Below are positions 21,106 through 26,245 of a stretch of 33,163 bases of DNA, piece by piece (position 1 is the first letter of the stretch; each line of letters starts with the position of its first letter). Below the pieces are notes generated by a model that was not told the origin of the DNA, ran no database searches, and was given only the letters and a program-made list of their open reading frames with translations. Both the position numbers and the translations under genes were made by a program. The stretch is from assembly GCF_030145145.1 (NCBI RefSeq), contig NZ_JAQYWD010000051.1, positions 1 through 33,163 on the forward strand, given 5' to 3'. Origin of the DNA: Desulfobacula sp. Its GTDB lineage: Bacteria > Desulfobacterota > Desulfobacteria > Desulfobacterales > Desulfobacteraceae.

Positions 21106-22989
21106 TTAGTAATCAGCCAATGTCTCCTGAATACCTTTATGGATCTCGTACCAGAAATTTAATGCTGCTTCTCGTTTATTGGTTTCAAAAGCATCAATCC
21201 ACTTATCGAGTTCCTGATCTTCTATTTTATCGATCTCTTTTTTTCTCTTTAAAAATGTATATATAAAATCGAAATTTCTCTCACTCTCCCAGAAAACAGA
21301 TGAGTTTCTGCTGTTAATTCTTGCTGCAGCTCTTGAAATTTTATCCAGGTAAAGTTCCTGCATCCCGGGTCCAAGAAGAGATTCCATTACTTCGGGAATC
21401 ATCTCCTCAGCCCATTGACGGTGAAACCTGCACATCCCCATGTTGTCTAGTATGAGTTCTTTCTTTAATCGGATTCCGTCTTTGCGGCCCAGTTCCCTTG
21501 GCGATACAAACTCATCTGCGTAATGCATAAAATATTTACCCATAATAGCCATGGGTGAGAGTACGCCGGGTGTCCAGTACTGGTTCGGGATCATCCAGCC
21601 TGTGCGGGCAAAACCAATGCATACAAGCTTATCAAGAATCAACCTGTCCTTTTCCTTAGCCAGTTTACGGGAGAGCTTTCTTACTCCGGCTATAATATTA
21701 AGGATGCCCTTTTTCTCAATAATTGAATCAAGTATTTCCATTCCGATTTTGGCATTGTGCATGGAATCGTTGACTAAATCAAAATCTTCTATATCCCATT
21801 TAGGAATATTGTTTGAAATTCCCAGTTCTTCGGGTGTAAGCAGGCCGTCAACAAGACATTCCATAAGCCATGCAATTACCCCTCCCGCAGCGATGCCGTC
21901 AAATCCGTACGTGTCAGCATGGTGGTTCAGCATCTCGGCAGCTCTCTGATCAAAAATTCCTGAGAGCGGACCCATTGCCTGATAGGGCTCATAATCTTTT
22001 TTAAATTCATTATTCATTTTTTTACATACAGCAACGCAGGGTTCGCCGCAGGTAGCCTGTTTTTTGGGTATGATCGTCTCTTCATTGAATTGTTTAAGAT
22101 AATGATTTTTAACAAATCTTTCATGAATTTTAAGGCGTTGCTCCTCTGTCATGTAAATGCTTTTATAATTGAATGACAGCATTTTGCCACCGAGAGTCGC
22201 GTAATTTACGCCGAATGTACCCCCTGTATTGAAGTTCGGTTCAAACCTGTATTTTACAGTTGCTTCAATATTTTTTGCAGCAAGTTTTTTATTATACTTA
22301 TCAACAAACCACTGGTCGGCGACCTTTCTGTCCCTGAAGTCATCATCGATAAACGTACCACCGTATATTATCGCGGCAATTCCATGTTCCTGCATCATTT
22401 TTGAACCAAAACCGCCCCGTCCGGCCCATGTGTCAACAGAGGAGATCTTCCCTTTTCTTATCGGCATTGAAGCGACGGATCCATGTCCTGTAGCAAGAGC
22501 CGCCGGGCCTGTAACAAGAATTCTCGGGTCATTATAGTATTCCCTGGCGTACATTTGATAAACATGATCTGTCAATGAGTAGACACCCATTCTTCCCGAT
22601 TTCCATACATTGTGAATATCAACAGGTTCAATCTTCAGCTGGATCTCCTCACCATGAATCCTGTTTAGATAAAGAACAGATGGTGTTGGCGTGCGCCCTG
22701 TTATTGTAAGCATATCTATACCAAGATTATTGAATATAAGACCTGCTCCCCCCATTGTAGAGATATAAAAATTGCTCCAGCCTGGAGAGTATCCTGTGAA
22801 AATCAGTCTGTTGGATCCGGGGAAAATTGATCCTGCCAGCAGACCTGTTCCGATATTAAGACTGTCATATTTTTTTGCAAGGTGAAGTCCAAGATCTACA
22901 GGGCCGAAATAGTCACCTACTTTGTATCTGTTGATTTTGTAAAAACCTGTACTTGAATCAACAATCAGAGTTTTAAGGTAAATATTCAT
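21106..22989 (-). CDS. Aldehyde:ferredoxin oxidoreductase family protein (tungsten pterin enzyme)
   Basis: The 627-residue protein fits the AOR family, which oxidises aldehydes to acids with a tungsto-bispterin and one [4Fe-4S] cluster and reduces ferredoxin. Family features include LIFTGYSPGWSNFYISTMGG near residue 63, the pterin-contact segment RILVTGPAALATGHGSVASM, and GRGGFGSKMMQEHG. The cluster cysteines are C314, C318 and C322 (CGEPCVAVC) plus a later Cys in DNMGMCRFHRQW. The first spacing is C-x3-C rather than the usual C-x2-C of Pyrococcus AOR, so it belongs to a variant branch. The gene is much richer in AT than betB and its codon use differs, which suggests transfer. AGAGGA lies about 8 bases before the ATG. 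No ferredoxin gene adjoins it. It could dispose of aldehydes such as those from choline metabolism, but that link is only positional. Confidence 0.85.
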   Translation of the reverse strand: MNIYLKTLIVDSSTGFYKINRYKVGDYFGPVDLGLHLAKKYDSLNIGTGLLAGSIFPGSNRLIFTGYSPGWSNFYISTMGGAGLIFNNLGIDMLTITGRTPTPSVLYLNRIHGEEIQLKIEPVDIHNVWKSGRMGVYSLTDHVYQMYAREYYNDPRILVTGPAALATGHGSVASMPIRKGKISSVDTWAGRGGFGSKMMQEHGIAAIIYGGTFIDDDFRDRKVADQWFVDKYNKKLAAKNIEATVKYRFEPNFNTGGTFGVNYATLGGKMLSFNYKSIYMTEEQRLKIHERFVKNHYLKQFNEETIIPKKQATCGEPCVAVCKKMNNEFKKDYEPYQAMGPLSGIFDQRAAEMLNHHADTYGFDGIAAGGVIAWLMECLVDGLLTPEELGISNNIPKWDIEDFDLVNDSMHNAKIGMEILDSIIEKKGILNIIAGVRKLSRKLAKEKDRLILDKLVCIGFARTGWMIPNQYWTPGVLSPMAIMGKYFMHYADEFVSPRELGRKDGIRLKKELILDNMGMCRFHRQWAEEMIPEVMESLLGPGMQELYLDKISRAAARINSRNSSVFWESERNFDFIYTFLKRKKEIDKIEDQELDKWIDAFETNKREAALNFWYEIHKGIQETLADY

Positions 22990-23021
22990 ATTTGTTTCCT
23001 CTCTAAAATTTTCTTAATCCA

Positions 23022-23150
23022 TTATTTTAACTCGGCGCTAACATGAAAATATCCAGTGAACTCCGGTGCATTTTTAAGGAACGGCTTTAATCTTTTAACC
23101 AAAGGCATGCCAAGGGGCCATCCGAACTCCCGAATTGTCAATGATTTCAG
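23022..23150 (-). pseudogene. Possible C-terminal stub of a REP-type transposase (Y1_Tnp)
   Basis: A 42-codon open frame closed by stops on both sides reads REFGWPLGMPLVKRLKPF and continues to a TAA at 23022. The 'G-x-PLG...F/V..RL' pattern resembles the C-terminal tail of REP-associated tyrosine transposases. Nearby, on the same strand, is GGGGTGGGGTCGAAC, a sequence style often found beside such elements. The catalytic domain is absent. The call is tentative. Confidence 0.3.
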
Positions 23151-23226
23151 TCAAGACGAATTAATGCGAGGGACAGGCAAAAAGGTCATGGCCCAGGGTT
23201 CATTTGAAATGTTCGACCCCACCCCT

Positions 23227-23352
23227 CTAACGTTTTAAAGGATTTTTCCATATCCTGTATTTTGATTTCAACATTGTTTTACCCAGCATATGGGCGGCTG
23301 CGGGCGTTGTCAAGATAATAAACAGCATAATACCGATCACACGGGAGGTTAC
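23227..23352 (-). pseudogene. mnhG: C-terminal remnant of Na+/H+ antiporter subunit G
   Basis: The frame reads VTSRVIGIMLFIILTTPAAA then HMLGKTMLKS and ends at a TAG (23227). The hydrophobic helix followed by T-x-PAAAH is the characteristic end of MnhG/MrpG. The N-terminal two thirds of subunit G and all of subunit F are missing; the piece begins exactly where the MnhE remnant ends, with two bases of frame overlap. It has no start codon of its own at a sensible place and is surely non-functional alone. Confidence 0.65.
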
Positions 23353-23570
23353 CTGCACACAGATACCATCATTTCATAATGGAAATAAACCAGCAGAACC
23401 ACAGCGGCTTTCAACCGTCGAAAATATGCGGTATCCATGCCGAATGGCTGGATCAGCCATAAACAGGCCAGTCCCAGTAAAAACCCGACAGAAAAATCGA
23501 TGATACTGTATTCATTATTGACCAGTACCCAGGCGCCGGCAAAAATGAGATTTAGGATCAGATAGGTCAT
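23349..23570 (-). pseudogene. mnhE: N-terminal remnant of Na+/H+ antiporter subunit E
   Basis: The 73 codons match the start of MnhE/MrpE: LNLIFAGAWVLVNNEYSIID, FSVGFLLGLACLWLIQPFG, then AYFRRLKAAVVLLVYFHYEM. Family members are about 160 residues; here the protein stops after MMVSVCR. The start overlaps the stop of the upstream A-D fusion by four bases (ATGA), the arrangement normally seen between mrpD and mrpE. The missing C-terminal half, together with subunit F and most of G, was removed by one deletion with its junction near 23350-23365. Confidence 0.7.
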
Positions 23571-24577
23571 GGCCTTTCTCCTAAAACCGCTTGAATATAA
23601 AGAAACGGATCCAAAAGCTGCATCGCGGCCCTGTCCGCAAACAGGAAAAACGGTTCTGCTGCCAGTCCGATAATGATCGTTACCAGGAAAATAACGCTCA
23701 GGATTTCAACCAGCAGCTGTGTTATCAGCGTTACCGGCACCTCGAAACATTCGCTGCCTGACGGCAGCCATTGGGTGACAACATCAATTAAAGATTTGAC
23801 CCGGTTGTGATACCCAAAGATTGCAGCACCCAGCAGCAGTGACACGCCGCTCAGTAACAGCGGCAGATTCAGGCCCTGCCATAATTTGAGTGTTTCTATC
23901 TCAAGTCCTGGATTGACAACCAGACTTGCGAAAACAATCAGGGCAGTGTTGAGCCATTCAAGGCCGAAAATGGTTATCCCCAGTCCCAAAAAGGCCAGAC
24001 ATAACGGCGGCACCCACAAAAACAGGTGTTTTTCAACAGATTTAACCGGCACGCTGTTCTCATCCTGGGATGAAAAAAAGGGTTTGATGACAATGATAAA
24101 CGCAAGCGCCGCCATGATGGAATGAACAAGAACAAGTATGGCTGTCTGCGCATATGAAACACCGAGGGCCGCTTTATACATATATTCTTTGCTGAGGAAT
24201 CCGGGCAGCGGCGGAATGCCTGCCTTTGACAAAGCGGATAACCCCGCAGCAACAAAGCTCATTTTAAGGATACCCCCTAACCCGGCAAGGCGATGATACT
24301 CTTTGGTACCGGCTGCTTTGTCTACGGTGCCGACCACCATGAAAAGCGCTGCCTTGTAAAGGGCATGGGCAATGATAAACATCAGGGCCGCTGATATGGC
24401 ATAGCGATTGCCAAAGGCCAGCAGGTAGACACCCGCCTTGACCATGGTAGCGGAATGGAGATAGGCACTGACCGGTGCCGGCGCTGACATGGCACCGGTC
24501 ACCAGCATGGCTTGAAGCGCATTTTTCCTGGAAATCTGCTGATCATGATTGAATCCGAGATTTAACTGAGATCTTTT
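23567..24577 (-). pseudogene. mnhA: Collapsed Na+/H+ antiporter subunit A fused to the end of subunit D
   Basis: The open frame (Met at 24508, open back to 24577) is a mosaic. GFNHDQQISRKNALQAMLVT matches an internal part of MnhA. It then jumps at about 24494 to AMSAPAPVSAYLHSATMVKA, skipping some 60 residues. It jumps again at about 24415 to GNRYAISAALMFIIAHALYK, skipping another 60 or so. MnhA sequence then runs through LKLWQGLNLPLLL to LITQLL. At about 23710 it changes to VEILSVIFLVTIIIGLAAEP, LLDPFLYIQAVLGERP, the C-terminus of MnhD/MrpD, and overlaps mnhE as mrpD normally does. The start of MnhA, the end of A, all of B and C and most of D are gone. Missing lengths are estimated from remembered family patterns. 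A 313-residue membrane protein could still be translated, but an antiporter is very unlikely. Confidence 0.65.
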
Positions 24578-25074
24578 TTATGACGGGAGTCGGGCTCCCG
24601 GTTTTGATTACCGAAAAGAATCCGGTCAAAGTTCGAAACATCTGCTTTTGACGATTTCAGCACCAGAAAATAACCAATGCTCATGGAAAATACCACACCG
24701 GCTATAGCCCAGACATACTCTGAACCGATTGTACTGAAATCGAGAATAATAATCTTCCGGGCAATGGCCATGAGAGCCGTTGCCATGACAATCTGAACAT
24801 GGATGACATCCTCCCGGAGGTAGACACAGATATTCACAAATATTTCGATGGCGATGAGAACCGCCATGAATGCTCCGAACGTTGCAAGAATATCGCTGAT
24901 GGTCAACAGAAATCTGGGCGGCGACATCAGTTTTTCATACAGCACCCAGCACACATCAACCACGCCCCAGATAATAACAGCTGTCATAATGAGGGCCATA
25001 ACCCTGACGGCAAACCTTATCACTGAATGAAGTTTTAATATCAGCGGCTCATCGTTCCTGTCATGATCATTCAT
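24562..25074 (-). CDS. PsiE-family membrane protein
   Basis: This 170-residue protein has four predicted transmembrane helices (VMALIMTAVIIWGVVDVCWV, ATFGAFMAVLIAIEIFVNIC, VMATALMAIARKIIIL and AIAGVVFSMSIGYFLVL). The conserved-looking REDVIHVQIVMATALMAIAR segment is typical of the phosphate-starvation-inducible PsiE family. The biochemical role is unknown. AGGAG lies 7 bases before the ATG. It follows the universal stress protein gene by 26 bases, so the two are probably co-transcribed. Its last codons (RHKKDLS) overlap the open frame of the collapsed mnhA, meaning that a deletion junction lies right at its 3' end. Confidence 0.75.
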   Translation of the reverse strand: MNDHDRNDEPLILKLHSVIRFAVRVMALIMTAVIIWGVVDVCWVLYEKLMSPPRFLLTISDILATFGAFMAVLIAIEIFVNICVYLREDVIHVQIVMATALMAIARKIIILDFSTIGSEYVWAIAGVVFSMSIGYFLVLKSSKADVSNFDRILFGNQNREPDSRHKKDLS

Positions 25075-25100
25075 AATTATACTCCTGTTTCAATTCATTA

Positions 25101-26018
25101 TTACTCTGATGATATTGCATCCAAGATATTGAGCCCTTCTCCCTTATTTTTGACCGCCAGAATCGGTCTGTCAAGTTTTCTTATCAATCCTTCTGTAACA
25201 CTGCCCAGAAGAATTGCAGCAATATCACCGCTGCGGCCCCTGGCACCGACAACGATCAGGCCAGCTCCCATCTTCTTTGAAAACATGAGTATGCCGTCAA
25301 CAACGTCATTGCTTTTTTTAAAAAAAGGTTTGATAGCAATTGATTTTAGATCGACTTTTGGTAATAATGCCCTTAATTTCGATTTTGCATTATCCAGCAT
25401 AATGTCGGCGAATTCCTCATGGGATTTGCCTGTCTTATGGTATTCTGTCGGAACTTTGTAATTATTGAGGATATATATCTCTTCCAATCCGGCTGCCTTG
25501 GCAAAAGCACTGCCCACATCCAGGGCATTTAACGCGTGATCGGAAAAATCCACAGCTACCAGTATTTTTTCAAGCAGGGCTTTTGCTCCCTTGGGAACAA
25601 TCATGACCGAGCAGAACGCTTTTCTTGCCAGCTTTTCCGAAATGGCTTTTTGGGCCGCCATTTCAGTTGAATGATGGCCGACAATCAAAAGGTCAATATC
25701 ATATTTTTTTGTGTATGAGATCAACTGTCCCAAAAGTGGTCCTTCCAGGGGGCTATAGATTTTTTGTGTATTTTCGTGGCCGTTAAAGTGTTGTTCAACA
25801 ATCTGTTTCATCAAGTCTTCAACTGCTGTTTCGACCGGGGATGCAATTTGCGGATAGATCTTTTTGATTTCTTCAGGAATATCAAATGTGTCAGACACAT
25901 ATACAAAATGTAATTCATCTGATTTGGCCATCTTAGACAATATTCCCGCGTACTGAATCAGTTTTTCATCATGGTCATCCAGATTAAGACAAATCATTAT
26001 TTTTTTGTACCGATACAT
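25101..26018 (-). CDS. Tandem-domain universal stress protein (UspA family)
   Basis: The 305-residue protein contains two Usp domains. The first (KKIMICLNLDDHDEKLIQYA to VMIVPKG) has a degenerate nucleotide site around IVGHHSTE. The second (KILVAVDFSDHALNALDVGS to PILAVKNKG) keeps a recognisable ATP-binding pattern, VGARGRSGDIAAILLGSVTE, followed by LIRKLDRPILAV. Usp proteins help cells withstand starvation and other stress, usually as cytoplasmic dimers; the specific role here is not known. The start at 26018 is chosen because AAAGGAGG lies just upstream, against an earlier ATG at 26036 with none. It heads a short unit with the psiE-like gene. Confidence 0.88.
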   Translation of the reverse strand: MYRYKKIMICLNLDDHDEKLIQYAGILSKMAKSDELHFVYVSDTFDIPEEIKKIYPQIASPVETAVEDLMKQIVEQHFNGHENTQKIYSPLEGPLLGQLISYTKKYDIDLLIVGHHSTEMAAQKAISEKLARKAFCSVMIVPKGAKALLEKILVAVDFSDHALNALDVGSAFAKAAGLEEIYILNNYKVPTEYHKTGKSHEEFADIMLDNAKSKLRALLPKVDLKSIAIKPFFKKSNDVVDGILMFSKKMGAGLIVVGARGRSGDIAAILLGSVTEGLIRKLDRPILAVKNKGEGLNILDAISSE

Positions 26019-26047
26019 AGAGCCTCCTTTAATCATCTACCTGATGT

Positions 26048-26245
26048 TTATATTTCGCCGTTATTTTCAGCCTTCACTTTTTGATACCATTTCTTATGCC
26101 CATACAACTGATCTGCACAAGGCGTGCATAAGCTATGGCTGAAAGACGCTTCGGATCTTTTTTCAATAGTACTTGCAAGATCAATAATTTTTTGCCACTT
26201 GATCAATGTGTTCTCGGGAATTTCGGTACGATTGGTTTCTGTCAT
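26048..26245 (-). CDS. Small Cys-motif protein related to tails of sensor/response proteins
   Basis: This 65-residue hydrophilic protein has a central segment EASFSHSLCTPCADQLYG. It strongly resembles the 'FSHGICPDCAKKLYP' tail found after PAS or receiver domains in many deltaproteobacterial signalling proteins. Two cysteines in C-x2-C could bind metal. No sensory domain is present, so it is either a stand-alone adaptor or a derived fragment. AAGGGG is upstream of the ATG. It is 29 bases before the universal stress protein start and may be part of that operon. Confidence 0.6.
   Translation of the reverse strand: MTETNRTEIPENTLIKWQKIIDLASTIEKRSEASFSHSLCTPCADQLYGHKKWYQKVKAENNGEI

Follow-up and report, generated by a model that had tools for sequence, protein, structure and literature searches.

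Fragments of an Mrp (Mnh/Sha) antiporter operon follow each other in the standard order on a Desulfobacula contig, and several of the joins between them lie within a single open frame of 313 codons. This raises the question of what shortens an operon so severely while its gene order and much of its reading frame survive. The window we analysed is the whole of contig C75 (33,163 bases) from a draft assembly of 89 contigs and 5.66 Mb. An earlier note on this DNA had offered a choice between selected in-frame deletions that yield a mini membrane protein and an assembly artefact. That choice omits recent neutral decay, which is the best reading of the data, and nothing found here points to an artefact. 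Most probably the locus is a recently decayed, redundant mrp operon that was cut in place by at least six deletions, an outcome that is ordinary in kind. No title naming this locus appeared among the literature matches listed.

An mrp operon reduced in place

Collinear pieces of mrpA, mrpD, mrpE and mrpG lie directly downstream of uspA and psiE on the reverse strand, at 24571-23241 (Table 1). The remaining operon DNA amounts to 1331 bases, about a quarter of the original length, in agreement with the remnant of about 1.35 kb at 23227-24577 that had been described. mrpB, mrpC and mrpF are wholly absent. The collinearity is far above chance (blastn E 6e-145 for one piece), and comparison with five references bears out the view that an entire operon was compressed by successive deletions with its order kept. 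The MnhD C-terminus, MnhE N-terminus and MnhG C-terminus recognized earlier are all recovered in the alignments, and the frame at 23349-23570 (-) matches MNHE positions 1-60 of 145. The ATGA overlap of mrpD and mrpE is present, as had been noted. MnhA, read at first as three parts, is left as four pieces, the fourth being a stretch of about 41 nt. The 313-codon frame is real; a model search aligns its body to positions 313-535 of a 773-position MrpA model, and MrpD is recognized at its end (over 224-310, with 49% identity to the G034 protein). By reading of the sequence, the mrpG piece reaches its stop at the same distance as in the relative L033, so the 3' end of the operon looks native.

Table 1. 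Features of the mrp remnant and its flanks (window coordinates; residue and nucleotide positions of the comparison refer to locus L033).
Feature	Position	Strand	Basis
Mosaic of other-gene scraps	23046..23204		DNA matches
Scrap matching contig C43	23046-23077		DNA match
Scrap of Gp49-like gene	23077-23128		PF05973 in L096
Scrap found beside IS-like ORFs in G058 and C69	23132-23178		Reading; HTH Pfam match below cut-off
Scrap of a glucose/sorbosone dehydrogenase gene that adjoins the C42 operon	23176-23204		DNA match
C-terminal part of mrpG, not in the mrpE frame	23241..23353	-	88% identity, L033 12571-12683
mrpE N-terminal 72 codons with ATG	23354..23570	-	PF01899 1-60/145
mrpD C-terminal end, about 38 codons and stop	23567..23682	-	Jump alignment; residue alignment
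Open frame, 313 codons, from mrpA and mrpD pieces	23567..24508	-	ORF list
mrpA piece 4, about residues 627-639, ~41 nt	23683..23723	-	35/41 identical, L033 9011-9051
mrpA piece 3, about residues 295-525	23724..24415	-	521/692 identical, L033 8016-8707
mrpA piece 2, about residues 210-237	24416..24498	-	72/83 identical, L033 7762-7844
mrpA piece 1, about residues 123-145	24499..24571	-	61/70 identical, L033 7500-7569
Junction 0, psiE 3' end to mrpA near codon 123-127	24559..24572	-	Jump-allowing alignment
psiE-like gene, intact, stop at junction 0	24562..25074	-	PF06146 E=1.2e-34; order as in relatives
uspA-like gene, intact	25101..26036	-	ORF; 78% nucleotide identity and same order in L033
GAF-domain gene remnant, 65 codons; 528 bp lost against L033, frame kept	26048..26245	-	Comparison

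Relatives that carry the intact operon next to the same genes make it possible to locate the breakpoints. Five loci encode close relatives (best-segment identity 54-72%): L033 from a Desulfobacula sp. MAG (genome G058), L034 from a Desulfobacteraceae MAG, L035 from Desulfospira joergensenii, L036 and L037; G028 and G034 are taken to be the genomes of L034 and L035. The intact operons that the earlier note had suggested looking for are found as an unbroken stretch in the first four, each with uspA and psiE DNA upstream of mrpA, and in L033 genes A-G are visible as ORFs. L037, a short contig, starts within psiE and stops after mrpA. The name UspA rests on inspection of the sequence and not on a family search; in relatives, too, the gene is conserved upstream of the operon, and the uspA-psiE neighbourhood is common to the remnant, L033, L034 and L035. 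A protein search of 57 other genomes returned matches above 60% identity only in G028 and G034. The further suggestion, that related genomes might share the remnant itself, found no support: a DNA search gave a close match in none of the 25 other genomes of the genus. G008 gave one 75-base match, to a stretch of the query that also matches a second mrp operon of the host on contig C42.

Alignment of the window to the five references, with jumps allowed, places six junctions against L033 (near 24572, 24499, 24416, 23724, 23683 and 23354), one more than the five seen earlier; the A to D join, given at 23710, lies near 23683. The placement shifts somewhat with the reference, to 24560-24623 for junction 0, 24494-24504 for junction 1, 24416-24422 for junction 2 and 23353-23354 for junction 5. 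Junction 3 falls at 23724 with L033 and at 23741-23743 with the others; junction 4, which L037 falls short of, is at 23683, or 23660 with L036. Further jumps below 23248 were dropped, as they lie behind mrpG in poorly aligning DNA.

Relative to L033, the losses at junctions 0 to 5 are 444, 192, 171, 303, 2463 and 727 bp, in sum about 4.3 kb (4300 by these figures). The other references repeat 192, 171 and 303 bp at junctions 1 to 3. They give 432 (L034), 433 (L035), 450 (L036) and 442 bp (L037) at junction 0, 2457 bp at junction 4 (L034, L035 and L036), and 727 (L034 and L036) or 726 bp (L035) at junction 5. The first of these losses (432-450 bp) takes the mrpA start and the first ~120 codons, that at junction 4 the end of mrpA, all of mrpB and mrpC and most of mrpD, and that at junction 5 the end of mrpE, all of mrpF and the start of mrpG.

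On the best reading, the remnant is what is left of a complete mrpABCDEFG operon that still occupies its ancestral site downstream of uspA and psiE; comparison with relatives shows that six deletions took ~4.3 kb from it and that the 1.33 kb still present keep their order. As in a pseudogene remnant, collinear fragments occupy the syntenic place of unbroken orthologues and the missing parts are absent from the rest of the genome. Bacterial pseudogenes eroded through deletional bias likewise show loss in place, kept order and, as at junctions 1 and 2 here, short repeats at some junctions; this locus differs in that its deletions are large and numerous compared with point mutations, and in that the frame across the joins is still open. 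It is a clear example of how an operon is lost from a large bacterial genome.

Reading frame and short repeats at the joins

Each of junctions 1-4 has a loss divisible by three in all references that extend to it, the joined residues being MrpA 145/210, 237/295 and 525/627 and MrpA 639 to MrpD 464. Phase is meaningless for junction 0, because the loss there runs from the psiE 3' end into mrpA. The mrpE-mrpG loss is not in frame (727 bp in three references; 726 bp and a separate 1-base gap in L035). With the neighbouring GAF-domain gene and a dehydrogenase gene on C42 counted as well, five of seven losses with meaningful phase are in frame, the exceptions being mrpE-mrpG and the dehydrogenase gene. 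All four joins within the 313-codon frame keep phase, for which a one-in-three expectation gives (1/3)^4 = 0.012.

The earlier note had held that random decay rarely leaves so many joins in frame. The argument overlooks the repeats within mrpA, 52-91% of which are in phase, although a clear repeat is present at two junctions only. At junction 1, 8 bp (CCGGTGCC) are shared at the two ends in L034, and at junction 2, 6-9 bp around CTTCTGGC are shared in L034, L036 and L037. The shared run is only 0-3 bases at junctions 0, 4 and 5 in the references compared, and 0-2 bases at junction 3 (L036 and L037 only). Exact mrpA repeats 60-3000 bp apart, pooled over five related genes and so non-independent, are in phase in 2683 of 5162 cases for k=6 (52%), 263 of 444 for k=8 (59%), 82 of 120 for k=9 (68%) and 31 of 34 for k=10 (91%). 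Over the whole L033 operon, a share that spans genes of differing phase, the spacing is divisible by three for 180/425 (k=8), 53/131 (k=9) and 16/36 (k=10), or 40-44%. Between mrpA and mrpD of L033, 72 of 121 shared 8-mers and 4 of 9 shared 10-mers are in phase. If all four deletions began at repeats, the chance of four in-frame joins would be ~0.12 (0.59 cubed times 0.60).

Frame-keeping deletions are therefore less rare than had been assumed, because in-phase short repeats are over-represented inside mrpA. More generally, because most short repeats in coding DNA are in phase, a long open frame that spans several deletion joins gives little evidence of selection. Given the short repeats at their ends, deletions 1 and 2 probably arose by slippage or end-joining at microhomology. 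A neutral repeat account of the in-frame joins is supported at these two junctions and is only possible at the others. Counting against neutral decay are the four joins out of four in frame with clear repeats at junctions 1 and 2 only, and the in-phase share of merely 40-44% over the whole L033 operon. Repeats that drive RecA-independent deletion are described for vesicomyid clam symbionts (PMC5310779); the present host, with a genome of 5.66 Mb, is no reduced symbiont.

Most junctions could instead stem from one round of repeated forward template switching. The ordered pieces on one strand would suit such a single complex event, as would the little or no microhomology besides junctions 1 and 2 and the near absence of point decay between the deletions. 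We consider it unlikely, as losses in nearby genes and one on C42 suggest a continuing process.

Coding capacity and constraint of the pieces

A functional Mrp operon requires all seven subunit genes, A-G; the remnant is without B, C and F, and its A, D, E and G are truncated. MrpA also requires both of its half-channels, and the deletions removed L033 residues to ~122, 146-209 and 238-294. E116 and K199 are invariant in 13 sequences and both fall within the lost parts, so that the conserved residues of the first half-channel are missing; we take K199 to be LysTMH7. In the published structure, the proton half-channels of MrpA are assigned to TMH4-8 and TMH9-13, and LysTMH7 and LysTMH12 are described as likely key to proton translocation (PMC7419157). 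The remnant should thus be unable to assemble an Mrp complex.

A smaller role might be imagined for the 313-residue MrpA-MrpD fusion itself, as a selected mini membrane protein that is made and acts beside psiE. If true, this would be a rare instance of subtraction yielding a new protein, with a large antiporter subunit reduced to a short one. In its favour, each of junctions 1-4 keeps the frame, no stop interrupts it, its dN/dS to L033 is about 0.2, and the structure predicted for it consists largely of helices (mean pLDDT 73, with poor scores towards both termini), although that model is silent on function. Against this, mrpA has lost its start, and the first ATG in frame (24508) is poorly placed, 17 nt after the nearest AGGA; reading of the sequence found no well-spaced ribosome site for it. 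The junctions also cut predicted helices. A structure predicted for L033 MrpA (mean pLDDT 74, less reliable beyond about residue 520) places the joined MrpA residues in helices 133-164, 209-212, 228-243, 274-295, 514-536 and 622-643, so loops were not the cut points. With Glu116 and Lys199 gone, and no close DNA match to the remnant in 25 other genomes of the genus, we regard a selected mini-protein as highly improbable; the 313-codon frame probably makes no working protein.

The low dN/dS of the frame does not change this assessment. The mrpA pieces of the window and L033 differ by dN 0.156 and dS 0.712 (dN/dS 0.22, 288 codons), and dN/dS to L033 is 0.23 for mrpD (38 codons), 0.19 for mrpE (72) and 0.15 for mrpG (37). 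The mrpG piece, though out of frame, is no worse preserved than the part in frame. Because this unreadable scrap shows the same low value, that of the 313-codon frame is uninformative on a new protein and is inherited from the full-length gene; since mrpG is not in the frame of mrpE, its good state is a sign of recent loss, not of function. We lean only on dN for the separate branches, because branch dS is poorly determined (on the window branch its intervals extend to zero or nearly so). In the mrpA pieces, dN on the window branch (0.069, 0.064 and 0.073 with outgroups L035, L034 and L036) is not raised over that on the L033 branch (0.087, 0.093 and 0.084). This may mean either that the loss is too recent to register or that the pieces are still under constraint. 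Judged from the sequence comparison, the deletions are recent relative to the divergence from these relatives, since signs of constraint persist even in the piece that can no longer be read. We found no indication at the remnant that a new protein was selected. Under recent neutral decay, the 313-codon frame would be a by-product, which may persist because coding repeats favour in-phase joins and too few later mutations have followed.

Missing DNA, the second operon and the surroundings

A DNA search of the host's own assembly with L033 4800-12700 returned the window pieces, a uspA-psiE copy on C69 and parts of the C42 operon, and no close copy of the missing mrp DNA elsewhere. The C42 operon matches this query at 63-77% identity in five stretches of 69 to 935 bases. 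Its ORFs (757, 132, 157, 498, 184, 113 and 155 aa) have the sizes and the order of genes A-G; A and D are supported by PF00361, and B, C, E, F and G are named by reading. As the cell keeps this second, diverged mrp operon, loss of the first would seem tolerable.

The same search bears on whether reads of an intact operon were wrongly collapsed in assembly. The window is an entire contig of an 89-contig draft, which leaves room for such an error. We judge it very unlikely, as the rest of the assembly, listed as 100% complete, does not contain the missing DNA, no long repeats able to cause collapse were found at the junctions compared, scraps of other genes adjoin the operon, and large losses also occur at the GAF-domain gene and the C42 dehydrogenase gene. 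The GAF remnant matches no Pfam family; its L033 relative does. The loss at the dehydrogenase gene is ~482 bp, out of frame by coordinates, with a 14-base overlap of the two blastn alignments.

Because scraps lie both upstream and downstream and the neighbours have lost DNA, the operon sits in a generally eroding stretch. The second uspA-psiE copy makes the pattern of decay at the remnant look unusual. It shows mostly substitutions (3.4% divergence), one 1-bp insertion, which shifts the uspA frame, and one truncation, which cuts psiE short; the remnant shows six large deletions and hardly any point decay, and this too counts against plain neutral decay.

Several other features were seen along the way. 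The second copy, at L076 6421-7699 (C69), pairs with window 24759-26036, comprises uspA and the first 106 psiE codons, and is 96.6% identical. The broken glucose/sorbosone dehydrogenase gene lies next to the C42 mrp operon, at L009 9625-10149. An aldehyde ferredoxin oxidoreductase family gene (window 21106-23031) adjoins the scraps behind mrpG. It has 95% DNA identity to G058 (C297), compared with 79-90% for the mrp pieces, and was therefore probably transferred recently. A scrap heap at window 27483-28179 matches short stretches of C69, C43 and G058. L110 8267-9652 (C42) contains ~1.4 kb of DNA, repeat-like in part, between aligned segments that adjoin each other in G008. Near the start of the window, an ORF at 119-571 carries part of an APP1 catalytic domain (2-91 of 154) and is probably truncated.
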